DNA of 6,297 nt, taken from JAFGIT01 sp016929465 [NCBI: Candidatus Coatesbacteria bacterium] (GTDB lineage Bacteria; B130-G9). The DNA lies in assembly GCA_016929465.1 (NCBI GenBank), contig JAFGIT010000286.1, positions 1-6,297 of the forward strand. The letters run 5' to 3'. Both the position numbers and the translations under genes were made by a program. The notes beneath the pieces are model-generated. The model did not search any database and was not told the origin of the DNA. It saw only the letters and a list, made by a program, of their open reading frames with translations. Positions 1-5,270 of this stretch are shown piece by piece; positions within the stretch are counted from its first letter, which is position 1, and every line of letters begins with the position of its first letter.

Positions 1-2238
1 AAAGAGACCGAGGTCCATCCTCAAATTCGTTCCGACGAATACTCGGGGGATGCTTATATAGTCAAGGGATTTCGCCGGACAGTTTCCGAGGGAGCGAAGA
101 CTCTCTATGATCTCTGGGCCAAGAAAGCCATATACAGGGTGGATACTGGGACGAACGACGCATCTGAAAAATTCCATTTACTCGAGGACGTACTCCCGGC
201 GAGCACGTACTTCGGTGAGGGGGACGAGCGGGTCTCGTTCAGCGCGGACGAAGGCAGATACGACCCCGAGTCCGACAATCTAGTGCTTCGCGGAAATGTC
301 ATGGCGATGCTGGAGACCGGCCTGACGCTGAAGTGCGACGAGGTTAGATTCAGCAGGTCCGAGATGGTCGCCTCGAGCGATAGCCTCGTTGTGATCTCCG
401 GGGAGGGGATCCATTTTCAAACAAGGGGCTTCGTTGCCGATCTCGTCCTGAAGGAGGTGTTCTTCCCTTCGAGGATATATCTCACTGGAAATTCAACCCC
501 GACTCGGCTGCTAAATTTGCTTTCCAACGACGATGCGCCATCTGGATCAGGGGAAGCATTGGAGGACGGTTTCTACTTGACTGCCGATCAGATGTTGTTC
601 GGAGCCAAGACGCGCGTCGCAGAGCTCAATGGTGACATTTCCATAGAGTCAGGAGACTACGAGGTTCACGCTGAGCAGCTCAAGCTCGGCTGGAAGGAAG
701 AGCCCAGGGAGATCGAATGGGGGGAGCTGCATGGGCTGGTTCTCGTCAAGACCGCCGACGGCTCAATTGGTTGCGACTACGCCGAATATAAGGAGGGGCT
801 TCTTCGCCTGAAAGGAATGCCGCTATTCATTCGCGATTTCGACCGGCTCGAGGGTCTGTTCGAGGATGATTGTTCCAAAGGAACCAGTGAACCTCATTGG
901 GCGACTATCTTCTCGAGTCTGATGAGTGAAAAGGAAGCAGATGGGGAGGTGTCTTTCTATGGAACCAGGGCGAGATTCTTCATGTTTCGCTCGGCCGCGA
1001 GCTACCTCGGATGCACCACCTTGAGCGGCAGGGAGTTCCGCTTCGAGGAGGAGCCCGGCCGGCTTCACGTGATTGACGACGTGGACCTCACGCTCAGCGA
1101 CATTCCGGGGATTGCAGACTCGTCATCGGAGAGAAGCGTTCATATCACATCAGATTCTCTCGACTATGATACGAAAGCAAAAGGAGCACTTTTCACGGGA
1201 GATGTGAATGTCCGCAGTCTCAGCGACTCGATTGACTCGGATACGCTTTTCATAAAGCTAGCGGATTCTGGCGACGAGGGCGTGCAGGTCGAGTCGCTCG
1301 AATTCGACGGCTCTGTCGAGGCCTTGCTCTCGATACCATCAGATTCACCCGAATCCGACGGCGAGCCCAGGATCGCCTATCTCTCATCCGACAGGCTAAC
1401 AATAGACACCGCGACGCGCGAGGCGGTTTGCTCCAGCAATGTCTCTATGCACTCGGAGGACCGCTCCTTGAGCTGCGATGAACTCCGCTTGACTATGTCG
1501 GAGGGGATGTCCGATGTCGAGGAGCTGGTCGCATCCGGAGAGGTCGTCCTGGAGAGCGAGGGGAGAATCGCGACTGGCGGGAAACTCGTTTATGATGTCA
1601 ATAGAGAGACGGCAGAACTGACGCGACAGCCCAAGGTGTGGTACGGTGAGAATGTAATGCTTGGGCGCAAGGTGGTCTATGATCTCAAGACGGGTAATCT
1701 TGGGCTGGTCGATAGCGTCCGGGGTGTGTTCTACAATGAGAAGGAGCTCGAATTGGGAAGCATGGGCGATGATGCAGGTGGAAATGACAATCGGGATGGT
1801 TCCGAATTCTCTCTTTCCGATTCAATCCGGCGCCCAGGCAAGGTCGAGCTTTCCGCTGACAAGCTGGATTACAACGATGAGACGATGGAAGGCACGTATT
1901 CCGGCAACGTCGTCGTTCGCAAGGGAGACGCTATCTTCAACGCGGACAGCGTGAGGATGGTGGGAGACGCAGCCACGGGAGAAGTCCAGACACTCGAGGC
2001 GATAGGTGATGTCCGGGTCCAGGACGGCAACCGCGTGTTGCGTGCCGATCGCGCGACATATTACGAGAGCGATCAGAAGGTGGTTCTTGACGGGAGCCCG
2101 AAGATATACGAGTTTGGAAAAATAATCACGAGAGGTGCGGTGGTCACACTACACCTCGGGTCCAAGGAATACGAGATACAGGGCGACGATGACGCCAGGA
2201 TCAAAACTACTTTGTTTGTTCCTGAGAAGGACAAATGA
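1..2238 (+). CDS. lptA: LptC-LptA (OstA) multi-domain LPS transport bridge protein, 5'-partial
   Basis: Probable periplasmic part of the Lpt machine that carries LPS from the inner-membrane LptBFG pump towards LptD. The frame is open from base 1, so the true start, and any signal peptide or membrane anchor, lie upstream. The GTG at 139 falls inside a conserved domain and is not a credible start. Numbering codons from base 1, residues about 17-165 read as an LptC domain: YIVKGF, then WAKKAIYR, FSADEGRYDPESDNLVLRGNV, and a closing segment GFVADLVLKEVFF. OstA/LptA-like modules follow at about 190-280, 380-560 and 613-735. Their recurring pattern is (S/T)(A/S)D.L.YD....G...G(N/D)V, best seen in SADKLDYNDETMEGTYSGNV. 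A divergent stretch lies at 285-375, and Asp/Gly/Ser-rich linkers lie near 176-188 and 585-612. E. coli LptC and LptA are each under 200 residues, so this protein of at least 745 is far longer. The stop overlaps lptB, which supports the role. The family is firm; module limits are by eye. Confidence 0.88.
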   Translation, partial: KETEVHPQIRSDEYSGDAYIVKGFRRTVSEGAKTLYDLWAKKAIYRVDTGTNDASEKFHLLEDVLPASTYFGEGDERVSFSADEGRYDPESDNLVLRGNVMAMLETGLTLKCDEVRFSRSEMVASSDSLVVISGEGIHFQTRGFVADLVLKEVFFPSRIYLTGNSTPTRLLNLLSNDDAPSGSGEALEDGFYLTADQMLFGAKTRVAELNGDISIESGDYEVHAEQLKLGWKEEPREIEWGELHGLVLVKTADGSIGCDYAEYKEGLLRLKGMPLFIRDFDRLEGLFEDDCSKGTSEPHWATIFSSLMSEKEADGEVSFYGTRARFFMFRSAASYLGCTTLSGREFRFEEEPGRLHVIDDVDLTLSDIPGIADSSSERSVHITSDSLDYDTKAKGALFTGDVNVRSLSDSIDSDTLFIKLADSGDEGVQVESLEFDGSVEALLSIPSDSPESDGEPRIAYLSSDRLTIDTATREAVCSSNVSMHSEDRSLSCDELRLTMSEGMSDVEELVASGEVVLESEGRIATGGKLVYDVNRETAELTRQPKVWYGENVMLGRKVVYDLKTGNLGLVDSVRGVFYNEKELELGSMGDDAGGNDNRDGSEFSLSDSIRRPGKVELSADKLDYNDETMEGTYSGNVVVRKGDAIFNADSVRMVGDAATGEVQTLEAIGDVRVQDGNRVLRADRATYYESDQKVVLDGSPKIYEFGKIITRGAVVTLHLGSKEYEIQGDDDARIKTTLFVPEKDK

Positions 2239-3089
2239 CAGAGGCTCTAATTAGGGGATCAGAATTGAGGATGGATCAGGAAGCGGATTCTCGGAGCGAG
2301 GCTGTCGATTCCCGGAGGGAGCTTGGGCGACTTGGCGACGAGGCCGAGGCGAAGTCCATGGACTCTCGGGACCGCCTGCGCTGCGTGGACCTCGTAAAGC
2401 GCTATCACGGGCGGACCGTCGTCAATCGGGTCAGCCTCGAGGTCGAGAGAGGAGAGATAGTCGGCCTATTGGGGCCGAATGGCGCCGGCAAGACCACGAC
2501 GTTCTATATGCTCGTCGGCCTGGTTAAGCCTGACGAGGGCACCGTTCTTCTCGGGGACGAGGATATGTCAGGGCTTCCGGTCTATGCGCGCGCGAGAAGG
2601 GGTGTTGGTTACCTGCCGCAGGAGGCGTCCATCTTCAAGCGGCTTTCGGTGCGAGACAACATCAGGATCATCCTGGAGGGGAGACGCCTCTCGAAAAAGG
2701 ACGTTGAGGAGCGAATTGACGAGCTACTTACGCTGCTGGATATAACGCACATCGCGAGCTCGATGGGCTACACTCTATCCGGCGGGGAGAGGAGACGAGT
2801 CGAGATAGTCCGAGCTCTTGCGCTGTCGCCGTCTTTCATGCTTCTGGATGAGCCTTTCGCGGGAATAGACCCGATCGCGATAATCGATCTCCAGAATATC
2901 GTGCGGAAGCTCAGGTCTCTAAAGATCGGCGTGCTGATCACCGATCATAATGTAAGGGAGACCTTGAAGATTACGGATCGAGGGTTCATAATAGATGAAG
3001 GTAAAATAATTAAGTCTGGTGATCCATCGGCAATTGCGAATGACGAGCTCGTAAGGAAGATCTACTTGGGCCATGATTTTGACTTGTAA
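2235..3089 (+). CDS. lptB: LptB, ATPase of the LPS export ABC transporter
   Basis: Cytoplasmic ATPase that, with the LptF/LptG membrane pair (not in this window), powers LPS extraction from the inner membrane. All ABC motifs are intact: Walker A GPNGAGKTT (80-88), Q-loop YLPQE (Q129), signature LSGGE (181-185), Walker B FMLLDEP with catalytic E206, and H-loop H238 in ITDHNV. The C-terminal end YLGHDFDL resembles the usual LptB ending. The sequence GPNGAGKTTTFYMLVGL and the phrase FAGIDPIAI are typical of LptB rather than of other ABC ATPases. The ATG at 2235 overlaps the previous stop (ATGA) and has GAGAAGGA just ahead. It gives 284 residues, with a charged N-terminal extension of about 41 residues before the usual domain. 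LptB is normally near 240 residues, so the in-frame ATG at 2358 (243 residues) is a serious alternative start. Confidence 0.95.
   Translation: MTEALIRGSELRMDQEADSRSEAVDSRRELGRLGDEAEAKSMDSRDRLRCVDLVKRYHGRTVVNRVSLEVERGEIVGLLGPNGAGKTTTFYMLVGLVKPDEGTVLLGDEDMSGLPVYARARRGVGYLPQEASIFKRLSVRDNIRIILEGRRLSKKDVEERIDELLTLLDITHIASSMGYTLSGGERRRVEIVRALALSPSFMLLDEPFAGIDPIAIIDLQNIVRKLRSLKIGVLITDHNVRETLKITDRGFIIDEGKIIKSGDPSAIANDELVRKIYLGHDFDL
2346..2360 (+). promoter_or_regulatory. Possible internal ribosome site and alternative lptB start
   Basis: GAGG at 2346-2349 lies 8 bases before the in-frame ATG at 2358-2360, a normal Shine-Dalgarno spacing. Starting here would give an LptB of 243 residues beginning MDSRDRLRCVDLVKRY, matching the usual family length. 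The overlapping ATG at 2235 also has a ribosome-site-like sequence, although its spacing of about 4 bases is short. Sequence alone does not decide between them. Confidence 0.4.
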
Positions 3090-3112: not shown

Positions 3113-4618
3113 TTGGCTGACAATTCACTCAAGGGGCACAAACTATCTGCGCGTCTTGATCTCCGCCTGACACAGAAATTGACGCTGACCCCTCAAATGC
3201 GCCAATCTCTCGAGATGCTTCAGATGAACGTTCTGGAGCTACAGCAGCAGCTGTTGGCAGAGCTGAGCGAGAATCCGCTTCTCGAGGAGGTCATGGATTA
3301 CGAGCGGGCGCCTGACGAGGATGTTAGTCCAGATCACGATCCAGACCATGACTCGCTCGATGAGGTGATGTCGCTGCTTATGAAGCGCGGCACCGACCTC
3401 GATCCCGAAGAAGACGAGTTCCGTGCGCCTGTCGTCGAACGCTGGAAGGGTGATAGCGACGTCGTTGATCCCACGGTCTATGAGCGAGTGCTCTTCAGAC
3501 GCGAAAATCTCACCGATCATCTCCTCAGTCAGCTCCACTTCGCCAGGCTATCGGAGCGTGACTTCGAGGTCGCGGAGAGGATCATAGGGAACATCGATTC
3601 TGACGGCTTCCTGCGGGCATCGGTCCAGGAGATCGCGAAGAACGCGGACGCAAAGGTCGAGGACGTAAAGCAGATACTCCGGCTGGTTCAGGAGTTCGAT
3701 CCCCCCGGCGTAGGGGCGAGAGACCTCAAGGAGTGCCTCAAGATACAGCTTCGTCACCTATTCGCGGAGCATGAGCTTCACACGAATTCGGACCCATTTC
3801 CGGAGCGGCTTCGTGTTCTGGTGCTCAGGGCCGTAGAGAAGCATTTTGACTTGCTAGTGGCCCATAAGCATCCTGAGCTCAGAAAAGCGCTCCGGATAAG
3901 CGAGACGACCCTCAAGAGCATTGTGGAGTTGATCGAGACGCTGGAGCCCAGGCCGGGAAGCGGCTTTGATCTCGATAGAGGCATCCCGATCGTCCCGGAC
4001 GTATATGTCGTGAAGCGCGGCCCGGGATTCGTCGCCATGCTCAACGAGCACAAATTGCCCAGACTAAGGATTGTGGGGAATTACGAGGGTAATTTCGGGG
4101 CAGATGAGTTGGGGCAGAAAGAGCGGGAGTTCATTAGGCAGAGGGCGGCCCGGGCAAACTGGGTCATGAAGAGCATAGCACAATGGAAGACCACATTGCT
4201 TCGTGTCGCTGAGGTGATTGTAAAATTCGAGACGGAATTCTTCCAGAAGGGCGCTTTGTATCTGAAGCCACTAAAACTTACCGATGTCTCTGCAGAGCTC
4301 GAATTGCATGAGACTACGGTGGGTAGAACAGTCTCCAACAAGTTCATCGATACCCCTCGCGGCTTATTCGAGATGAAGTACTTCTTTCACCGAGGGCTCG
4401 ATACTGCGAGCGGGACGTCGGTATCGTCGATAACGGTCAAGCAGCTTATCAAGGAGTTGATCGACAAGGAGCGATGTGATTCGCCCTACAACGATCAGCA
4501 GATATCTGACATGCTAGCAGAGAGAAGGATCAAGATATCAAGGAGGGCGGTGGCAAAGTACCGTGAATCTTTAGGGATACCGCCATCACATTTAAGAAAA
4601 CGCCAAAACATGACGTAA
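3113..4618 (+). CDS. rpoN: RNA polymerase sigma-54 factor RpoN
   Basis: Sigma factor that directs RNA polymerase to -24/-12 promoters; open complex formation needs an AAA+ activator. Region I (about 16-62) is present: RLTQKLTLTPQMRQSLEMLQMNVLELQQ..LSENPLLEE. An acidic region II linker follows (about 63-117, rich in Asp/Glu). The core-binding region (about 118-310) shows NIDSDGFL and FDPPGVGARDLKECL. The DNA-binding part has the helix-turn-helix LTDVSAELELHETTVGRTVSNK (389-410), then TPRGLFEMKYFF. The RpoN box SRRAVAKYRE (476-485) recognises the -24 element; it differs from the common ARRTVAKYRE at two positions. The length of 501 residues is normal. The start is TTG at 3113: a stop at 3080-3082 closes the frame upstream, no ATG or GTG lies between it and the TTG, and GGGAAGGCGG (3096-3105) serves as ribosome site. 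It lies 23 bases after lptB, probably in the same transcript. Confidence 0.97.
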   Translation: MADNSLKGHKLSARLDLRLTQKLTLTPQMRQSLEMLQMNVLELQQQLLAELSENPLLEEVMDYERAPDEDVSPDHDPDHDSLDEVMSLLMKRGTDLDPEEDEFRAPVVERWKGDSDVVDPTVYERVLFRRENLTDHLLSQLHFARLSERDFEVAERIIGNIDSDGFLRASVQEIAKNADAKVEDVKQILRLVQEFDPPGVGARDLKECLKIQLRHLFAEHELHTNSDPFPERLRVLVLRAVEKHFDLLVAHKHPELRKALRISETTLKSIVELIETLEPRPGSGFDLDRGIPIVPDVYVVKRGPGFVAMLNEHKLPRLRIVGNYEGNFGADELGQKEREFIRQRAARANWVMKSIAQWKTTLLRVAEVIVKFETEFFQKGALYLKPLKLTDVSAELELHETTVGRTVSNKFIDTPRGLFEMKYFFHRGLDTASGTSVSSITVKQLIKELIDKERCDSPYNDQQISDMLAERRIKISRRAVAKYRESLGIPPSHLRKRQNMT

Positions 4619-4703: not shown

Positions 4704-5270
4704 ATGAATATCACTTTTGTCAGTCGCCATTACGAGCTCAACACTACTCAGAAGTCTTTCATAGAGAGCAAACTAAAGTCTGTTCGTGAGCGGTACTTCG
4801 ACAAGCGACTTGACGTTCAGGTTGAGCTAACATCCGAGAAATCCAGGCAGCGCTGCGAACTGAATGTGCGCAGCGATAGGTTTCAGGAGCAGCTCCGAGT
4901 CGAAAGCCACGATATGCAGCAGTCCATAGTTGAGGCCATCGAGAAGCTCGAGATGATCCTTCGAAAACGGCATGACAAACAAGTCAACCGAAAGCGCGTC
5001 GAGAAGAGAGAGCAGACGGAGACACAGGTCGAGGCAGCGCTCGAGGCTCCGACTGATGAAGTTGGCGAGGAAATCGCGCCGGTCGATTTGCCGGAGATCA
5101 TCGAGACCGGAGCCAAGCCTTCGAAGCCAATTACTGTTACCGAGGCAGCGATGCTTCTGCAGGAGTCTGGAGACCAATTCATAGCCTTCAGGGACGCAAG
5201 TGAGAATGAATTCGCCGTGCTCTTCCGGCGTCAGGACGGCAAACTGGGATTACAGCGGCACGGTAGTTGA
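4704..5270 (+). CDS. hpf: Long-form ribosome hibernation promoting factor HPF
   Basis: Binds the 30S subunit in the mRNA/tRNA channel and, in the long form, drives 70S ribosomes into inactive 100S dimers during slow growth. Residues 1-93 form the S30AE/RaiA-type domain: MNITFVSRHYELN, the basic helix around KSVRERYFDKRL, and the C-terminal helix SIVEAIEKLEMILRKRHDK. A charged linker (about 94-139) leads to a small C-terminal dimerisation domain (140-186) with KPITVTEAAMLLQESGDQFIAFRDA and VLFRRQDGKLGL. These correspond to the family's usual KPM..EEA......FFVFR.A and V.YRR.DG..GLI. At 188 residues it is a long-form HPF, unlike the roughly 95-residue HPF beside E. coli rpoN. The ATG at 4704 has CGGGGAGAG upstream (4688-4696). 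It sits 85 bases after rpoN, behind a stable hairpin. Confidence 0.93.
   Translation: MNITFVSRHYELNTTQKSFIESKLKSVRERYFDKRLDVQVELTSEKSRQRCELNVRSDRFQEQLRVESHDMQQSIVEAIEKLEMILRKRHDKQVNRKRVEKREQTETQVEAALEAPTDEVGEEIAPVDLPEIIETGAKPSKPITVTEAAMLLQESGDQFIAFRDASENEFAVLFRRQDGKLGLQRHGS

Follow-up and report, generated by a model that had tools for sequence, protein, structure and literature searches.

A single gene joining LptC to several OstA modules directly before lptB, a probable membrane-anchored Lpt bridge with a gene-fixed number of modules

The gene order in Escherichia coli is lptC-lptA-lptB-rpoN-hpf. The locus described here raised the question of whether LptC and LptA can be made as one polypeptide and, if so, whether the number of modules in the Lpt bridge is then fixed by a gene. 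The window analysed (6297 nucleotides) is the whole of contig C6 of a 3.19-Mb draft assembly (G000; 423 contigs, 86% complete, 3.5% contaminated), and it opens with one uninterrupted reading frame on the plus strand (1-2238), which encodes 745 amino acids, is open at its 5' end and stops at 2238. As the window is the entire contig and the frame begins at its edge, the start codon has been lost. The frame was assigned as an lptC-lptA fusion gene of 745 codons with its 5' end missing, on the basis of the open reading frame, Pfam and NCBIfam profiles and a complete relative of 769 amino acids. On the same strand follows lptB (2235-3089; TIGR04406, 350.6 bits against a cut-off of 240), the start of which overlaps the stop of the fusion gene, so that the latter adjoins lptB as is expected of lptA. 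Pfam matches then identify rpoN (sigma-54; 3113-4618) and hpf, of the ribosomal S30AE family (4704-5270), with two PTS genes also downstream.

The OstA/LptD_N family PF03968 matched the 745-residue frame in three stretches with 128.6 bits (cut-off 20.4), and the LptA equivalog TIGR03002 scored 131.8 bits summed over three stretches (cut-off 71.7). LptC was recognised by PF06835 (41.2 bits against a cut-off of 21, residues 19-153) and by the equivalog TIGR04409 (55.4 bits against 38, residues 66-155). The chain departs from the norm of both proteins: LptC is ordinarily a separate protein of about 190 residues, here with OstA modules in the same frame, and LptA a free periplasmic single domain, here represented by three OstA stretches joined to LptC. 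A first-pass annotation had proposed a single frame joining an LptC-like domain with about three OstA/LptA modules, at least 745 residues long and lacking its N-terminus, and these matches above curated cut-offs bear it out; Pfam and NCBIfam gave three OstA stretches, not one. The chain had also been called very long; longer ones of the kind occur elsewhere (906 and 918 residues). NCBI models would label a protein of this kind LptC or LptA; what differs is the architecture, the domains themselves being known. The N-terminal domain of LptD has an OstA domain and fold in common with the chain, but the barrel is absent from the latter, and an LptD fragment was rejected as an identification, no barrel family (PF04453 or PF19838) being matched in the chain and LptD being encoded elsewhere. 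Carriage on a plasmid was rejected as well, there being no tblastn match among 72,556 plasmid records.

The gene sits at a contig edge, as might be expected of an artefact of assembly or frame, but the join is internal to the contig and recurs in relatives. Four genomes of the phylum, all of one family, were examined, namely the source and three relatives with completeness of 83, 94 and 95% (G001, G002 and G003, the last being the one at 83%). In G001 the fusion gene is complete (769 amino acids, 49% identity to the window chain); a HIT-domain gene precedes it, an S1-domain gene stands farther upstream, and lptB-rpoN follows directly. G002 contributes a 615-residue frame cut at its 5' end (42% identity) and a 190-residue N-terminal piece on another contig, and from G003 comes an N-terminal stretch of 288 residues, truncated at the 3' end. 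As G001 and G002 are independent genomes with the same module order, the fusion is not an assembly join, and these relatives refute the artefact, leaving it next to no probability. The two G002 pieces (L116:2-571 and L115:5675-7522) share an overlap of about 27 residues in which they resemble each other without being identical, and could possibly reflect strain variation or a second, incomplete copy. The G001 chain has an N-terminal hydrophobic helix at residue 9 (hydropathy 2.74), also visible in the N-terminal pieces of G002 and G003; the corresponding region is missing from the window frame. In an LptB plus RpoN tree of 39 rows, made by a quick method, the window grouped with G001 and G002 on a branch of 1.27, with no near phylum.

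The modules were delimited on an AlphaFold2 model made with nine sequences (mean pLDDT 74.1, pTM 0.61; with five sequences 64.0 and 0.57), the boundaries being our own reading of its strand list. The LptC domain comes first (residues 18-163, window 52-489; all modules on the plus strand), identified by PF06835, TIGR04409 and a fold match to 6mjp_C, and in the model it appears to be followed by three full OstA modules and one half. OstA-1 (residues 191-364, 571-1092) was recognised by an iterated profile match (192-285) and its strand pattern; it is absent from the three single Pfam stretches, and no PDB alignment row falls on it alone. It carries an insertion (residues 280-335, 838-1005) modelled as partly helical with low confidence and present in G001 and G002. 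A half module of four strands follows (residues 381-445, 1141-1335), supported by those strands and by positions 1-44 of PF03968 at 1141-1281, and then OstA-3 (residues 457-579, 1369-1737; PF03968 with 45.7 bits at 1381-1695, and strands). OstA-4 (residues 613-737, 1837-2211) is the most LptA-like, with 55.4 bits for PF03968 and a sequence match to the LptA chain 8onu_A (E 6.3e-6). The divergent segment of the first-pass annotation consists of OstA-1 with its insertion at about 280-335 together with the half module at 381-445. An OstA profile whose seeds were segments from this fusion family, and which was then iterated on retrieved loci, matched at 78-156 (inside LptC), 192-285, 379-440, 459-567 and 614-729, of which the last two are expected by construction as both overlap the profile seeds.

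Using VIA-align, residues 16-156 of the predicted model were superposed on Vibrio LptC (6mjp_C; Z 14.7, 130 aligned, rmsd 2.6), residues 376-563 on the N-terminal region of LptD (4q35_A; Z 15.4, 164 aligned, rmsd 2.8) and residues of about 376-522 on LptH/LptA (4uu4, 2r19_B; Z 13.9). From the last of these, the half module and the first part of OstA-3 occupy the place of one LptA jellyroll. A continuous groove had been anticipated, and here the prediction goes part of the way: strands follow one another throughout residues 339-579, and 376-563 align with the LptD jellyroll, but the structural blocks are parted by stretches with pLDDT below 50 (166-188, 287-323 and 584-604). With these breaks the model does not amount to one continuous groove along the whole chain, which is a possibility only. 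With Foldseek, the whole model reached a TM of at most 0.21 against LptD entries and target TM values of 0.5-0.7 against single LptA and LptC chains. Strand alternation, used as a groove test, was without signal in each of five segments, the observed value being attained by between 274 and 1682 of 2000 shuffles; as long strands bend across two sheets, this result was treated as uninformative and lends no support. Two cysteines, Cys 258 and Cys 338, flank the OstA-1 insertion and are conserved in 4/4 and 3/3 covering rows; they perhaps form a disulfide.

Identity to G001 peaked in LptC (87/139) and OstA-4 (77/125), with OstA-3 next (66/123); OstA-1 (70/174), the half module (22/65) and the insertion (19/56) were less conserved. 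Such conserved ends and variable middle would fit partner-binding ends with a spacer between them.

Whether the chain is the entire bridge depends on the other Lpt parts of these genomes. In profile searches no free lptA or lptC was found in the source genome or its three relatives, in line with the expectation that separate copies would be lacking; these are draft genomes in which a gene could be missed. In the source genome PF03968 (E up to 1) matched only the fusion chain, an 839-residue LptD on C111 and a 439-residue TPR-OstA protein on C385. This LptD is a separate gene, with barrel families at 107.3 and 81.6 bits. The same three kinds of OstA protein are present in G001 and G002, and pieces of them in G003. 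LptC scored above the cut-off in G000 and G001 in the fusion chain only, and the N-terminal piece in G002, with 19.1 bits, fell short of the 21 required. Two candidates for free components were rejected: a second LptC on C62 (11.4 bits, under the cut-off, inside an unrelated-looking repeat protein), and a 216-residue frame with an OstA match in G003, which proved to be the TPR-OstA protein, reduced by a contig edge to its C-terminal half.

LptF and LptG are likewise joined, in one frame of 818 amino acids in the source genome (L126:1166-3622, on C395). Its LptF half matched TIGR04407 at residues 4-398 (383.9 bits, cut-off 230) and its LptG half TIGR04408 at residues 461-815 (412 bits, cut-off 240). 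Fused LptF-LptG also occurs in G001 (816 amino acids, L172:2529-4979) and G002 (818 amino acids, L173:139-2595); for G003, at its 83% completeness, no LptF or LptG match was among those listed.

The chain could be an anchored LptC with only a built-in stretch of bridge, the span being completed by a missed LptA or by the TPR-OstA protein, in which case its length would not be fixed by the gene. The draft state of the genomes speaks for this, as does the occurrence of the TPR-OstA protein (433-440 amino acids) in G000, G001 and G002, G003 retaining the C-terminal half beside the end of a contig. However, none of the four genomes of the phylum yielded a free LptA, the chain already exceeds one E. 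coli LptC-LptA pair in OstA modules, and the TPR-OstA gene stands, by eye, beside genes like those of type II secretion or pili and away from lpt genes. We therefore regard a bridge completed by a further piece as unlikely. The TPR-OstA protein, a third OstA protein besides the chain and LptD, carries one C-terminal OstA domain (L118:1992-3311 in G000; also at L128, L132 and L131), and the neighbours of its gene look, by eye, like an ATPase of type II secretion or pili and a membrane protein.

We consider it likely that LptC and LptA in one polypeptide form a membrane-anchored Lpt bridge with a module number fixed by the gene. By analogy with E. coli, the N-terminal helix, seen in the complete G001 relative and presumed for the window protein, would anchor the chain in the inner membrane; the LptC domain would dock on the LptB2FG exporter, in which LptF-LptG is here one chain, and would receive lipid from the permease. 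The 3.5 OstA modules would lengthen the beta-taco groove so that it spans the periplasm, OstA-4, the last of them, handing the lipid to the separate LptD. With the module number fixed by the gene, LptA oligomers would not be needed; judged by this anatomy, the chain would set the length of the bridge and take over their part. Against this stand the 86% completeness of G000, from which a free lptA could be missing, the pTM of 0.61, the three breaks with pLDDT below 50, the absence of signal in the strand alternation test, and the conserved TPR-OstA protein, which could add an OstA unit.

The anchored bridge of fixed length would probably carry LPS or a similar lipid. The same machine could serve another lipid, as the available text of PMC10353723 describes an Lpt-like system in Borrelia, which is without LPS; but LptB, LptF, LptG, LptC and LptA all score above equivalog cut-offs here and LptD is recognised by Pfam, and a different cargo seems rather improbable. 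The chain might also be a precursor, cut into LptC and LptA pieces at the low-confidence linkers (166-188 and 584-604, both under a pLDDT of 50). The sequences of these linkers vary among relatives, however (8/25 and 14/32 identical to G001), and no processing is known, which makes a cut precursor very improbable; the chain presumably acts uncut.

As for the length of the uncut bridge, its 577 beta-taco residues, divided by about 135 per LptA jellyroll (2r19_A), correspond to 4.3 units by our arithmetic. According to the available text of PMC10863985, one LptA measures about 4 nm and LptC-LptA-LptD with a single LptA about 15 nm; that of PMC5575297 puts the E. coli machine, with one LptA, at 16 nm and the periplasm at 21 nm. 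The bridge studied here would then measure about 24 nm (15 + 2.3 x 4). As a wider and more tentative proposal, which we hold possible rather than probable, the Lpt machine may have been consolidated in this family, and in parallel elsewhere, into LptB, LptF-LptG, an LptC-OstA chain of gene-fixed length (with a groove of about 17 nm before LptD, by our arithmetic) and LptD, so that the gene would be a ruler of the periplasm and the bridge could open only at its LptD end or at LptF.

With LptC and LptA of E. coli the chain shares the LptC and OstA/LptA domains, the predicted beta-taco fold and the gene order. It differs in being one chain with 3.5 OstA modules, whereas in E. coli LptC and LptA are separate and the number of LptA monomers is unknown according to the available text of PMC10094684 and PMC10863985; that of PMC7237710 likewise states the LptA number per bridge as unknown. 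Natural bridges with a fixed module number thus make the question of LptA count testable: in a covalent bridge the count is constant within each lineage, so that it can be compared with the width of the periplasm and altered by deletion of modules. The chain also tests models in which the bridge must part between LptC and LptA, which is impossible here unless it is cut, and a single-chain permease and bridge may ease structural work. No paper on a natural LptC-LptA or LptF-LptG fusion was found by phrase search, or by broader searches of titles and abstracts; subscription literature was mostly outside their coverage, and an earlier description is possible. The available text of three papers on Lpt beyond proteobacteria (PMC5007114, PMC10353723, PMC8871954) mentions no such fusion.

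The LptC-OstA chain is not unique to the source family, and unrelated lineages have it too. A survey covered at least 80 lptB loci from named organisms, and 69 of those listed had at least 1.8 kb upstream. Among the matches listed, an LptC/OstA-like frame lay upstream of lptB in 28 of the 69, and none was detected by the iterated profile in 41; the 28 comprised at least two separate frames in 23 loci, one short frame in two and one long frame in three (L047 and L058, from Acidobacteriota MAGs, and L088, from a Cetobacterium MAG). In L047 and L088, Pfam matched LptC as well as OstA. The 920-residue frame of L058 was not counted as an LptC-OstA chain by Pfam: it gave five iterated-profile matches, but Pfam found OstA only, and the N-terminal part looks over-extended.

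LptC and OstA above Pfam cut-offs in one frame before lptB were also found in G221 (700 amino acids), G079 (729), G085 (680) and G025 (906), and G294, of the same phylum as G221 and G079, has a chain as well by Pfam (748). In G221 and G079 the chain precedes lptB-rpoN and an hpf-like gene, as in the window, and the upstream S1 and HIT genes are common to G221, G001 and G002; however, the chains of G221, G079 and G294 are only 15-18% identical to the window chain and largely lack the insertion at 280-335. L047 (721 amino acids) and G085, which groups with it, have LptC and OstA in one frame directly before lptB, but their OstA modules are more diverged (TIGR03002 with 59.6 and 68.4 bits, under the cut-off of 71.7). 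The chains of L088 (918 amino acids) and G025 likewise hold LptC/OstA modules in one frame directly before lptB, but are longer, with 9 and 10 profile matches below E 0.01; L088 reached 47.6 bits for TIGR03002, under the cut-off. Our guess from the gene neighbourhood is that G025 is fusobacterial. Two genomes carry two adjacent long LptC/OstA-like frames, of 576 and 658 amino acids in G112 (L167:1768-5471) and of 657 and 812 in G019 (L206:1658-6066); each pair is perhaps a long bridge in two pieces.

The co-occurrence of fused permease and fused bridge was followed in 68 genomes, all preselected for an LptF/LptG match and searched for LptF/LptG, LptC and OstA. Fused LptF-LptG was present in G000, G001 and G002, which are one family, and in G079 (773 amino acids), all with an LptC-OstA chain, that of G002 apparently lying in its two contig pieces. 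Among the matches listed for 145 genomes, a fused permease was also found in G085 (790 amino acids), which has the chain, and in G087, G089 and G107 (933, 810 and 854 amino acids), where LptC and LptA are separate. Three of the six fused-permease lineages thus also have a fused bridge, among the matches listed and with the last four genomes picked by eye; no p value is attached. Further LptC frames with OstA matches among the 68 were those of G025, G019, G029 (one OstA) and G007 (LptC under the cut-off), and the long LptC frames of G042, G068 and G049 were not counted as chains. G025 differs from the source in that its LptF and LptG are separate genes; a single LptF-LptG frame there was rejected, as a TAA separates the two. 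Another kind of Lpt fusion, with an OstA-like match behind the permease domain of an LptF/LptG-like protein in one frame, was seen in G052 (L215:1781-4048, 755 amino acids) and at L100:2-3172 (1056 amino acids).
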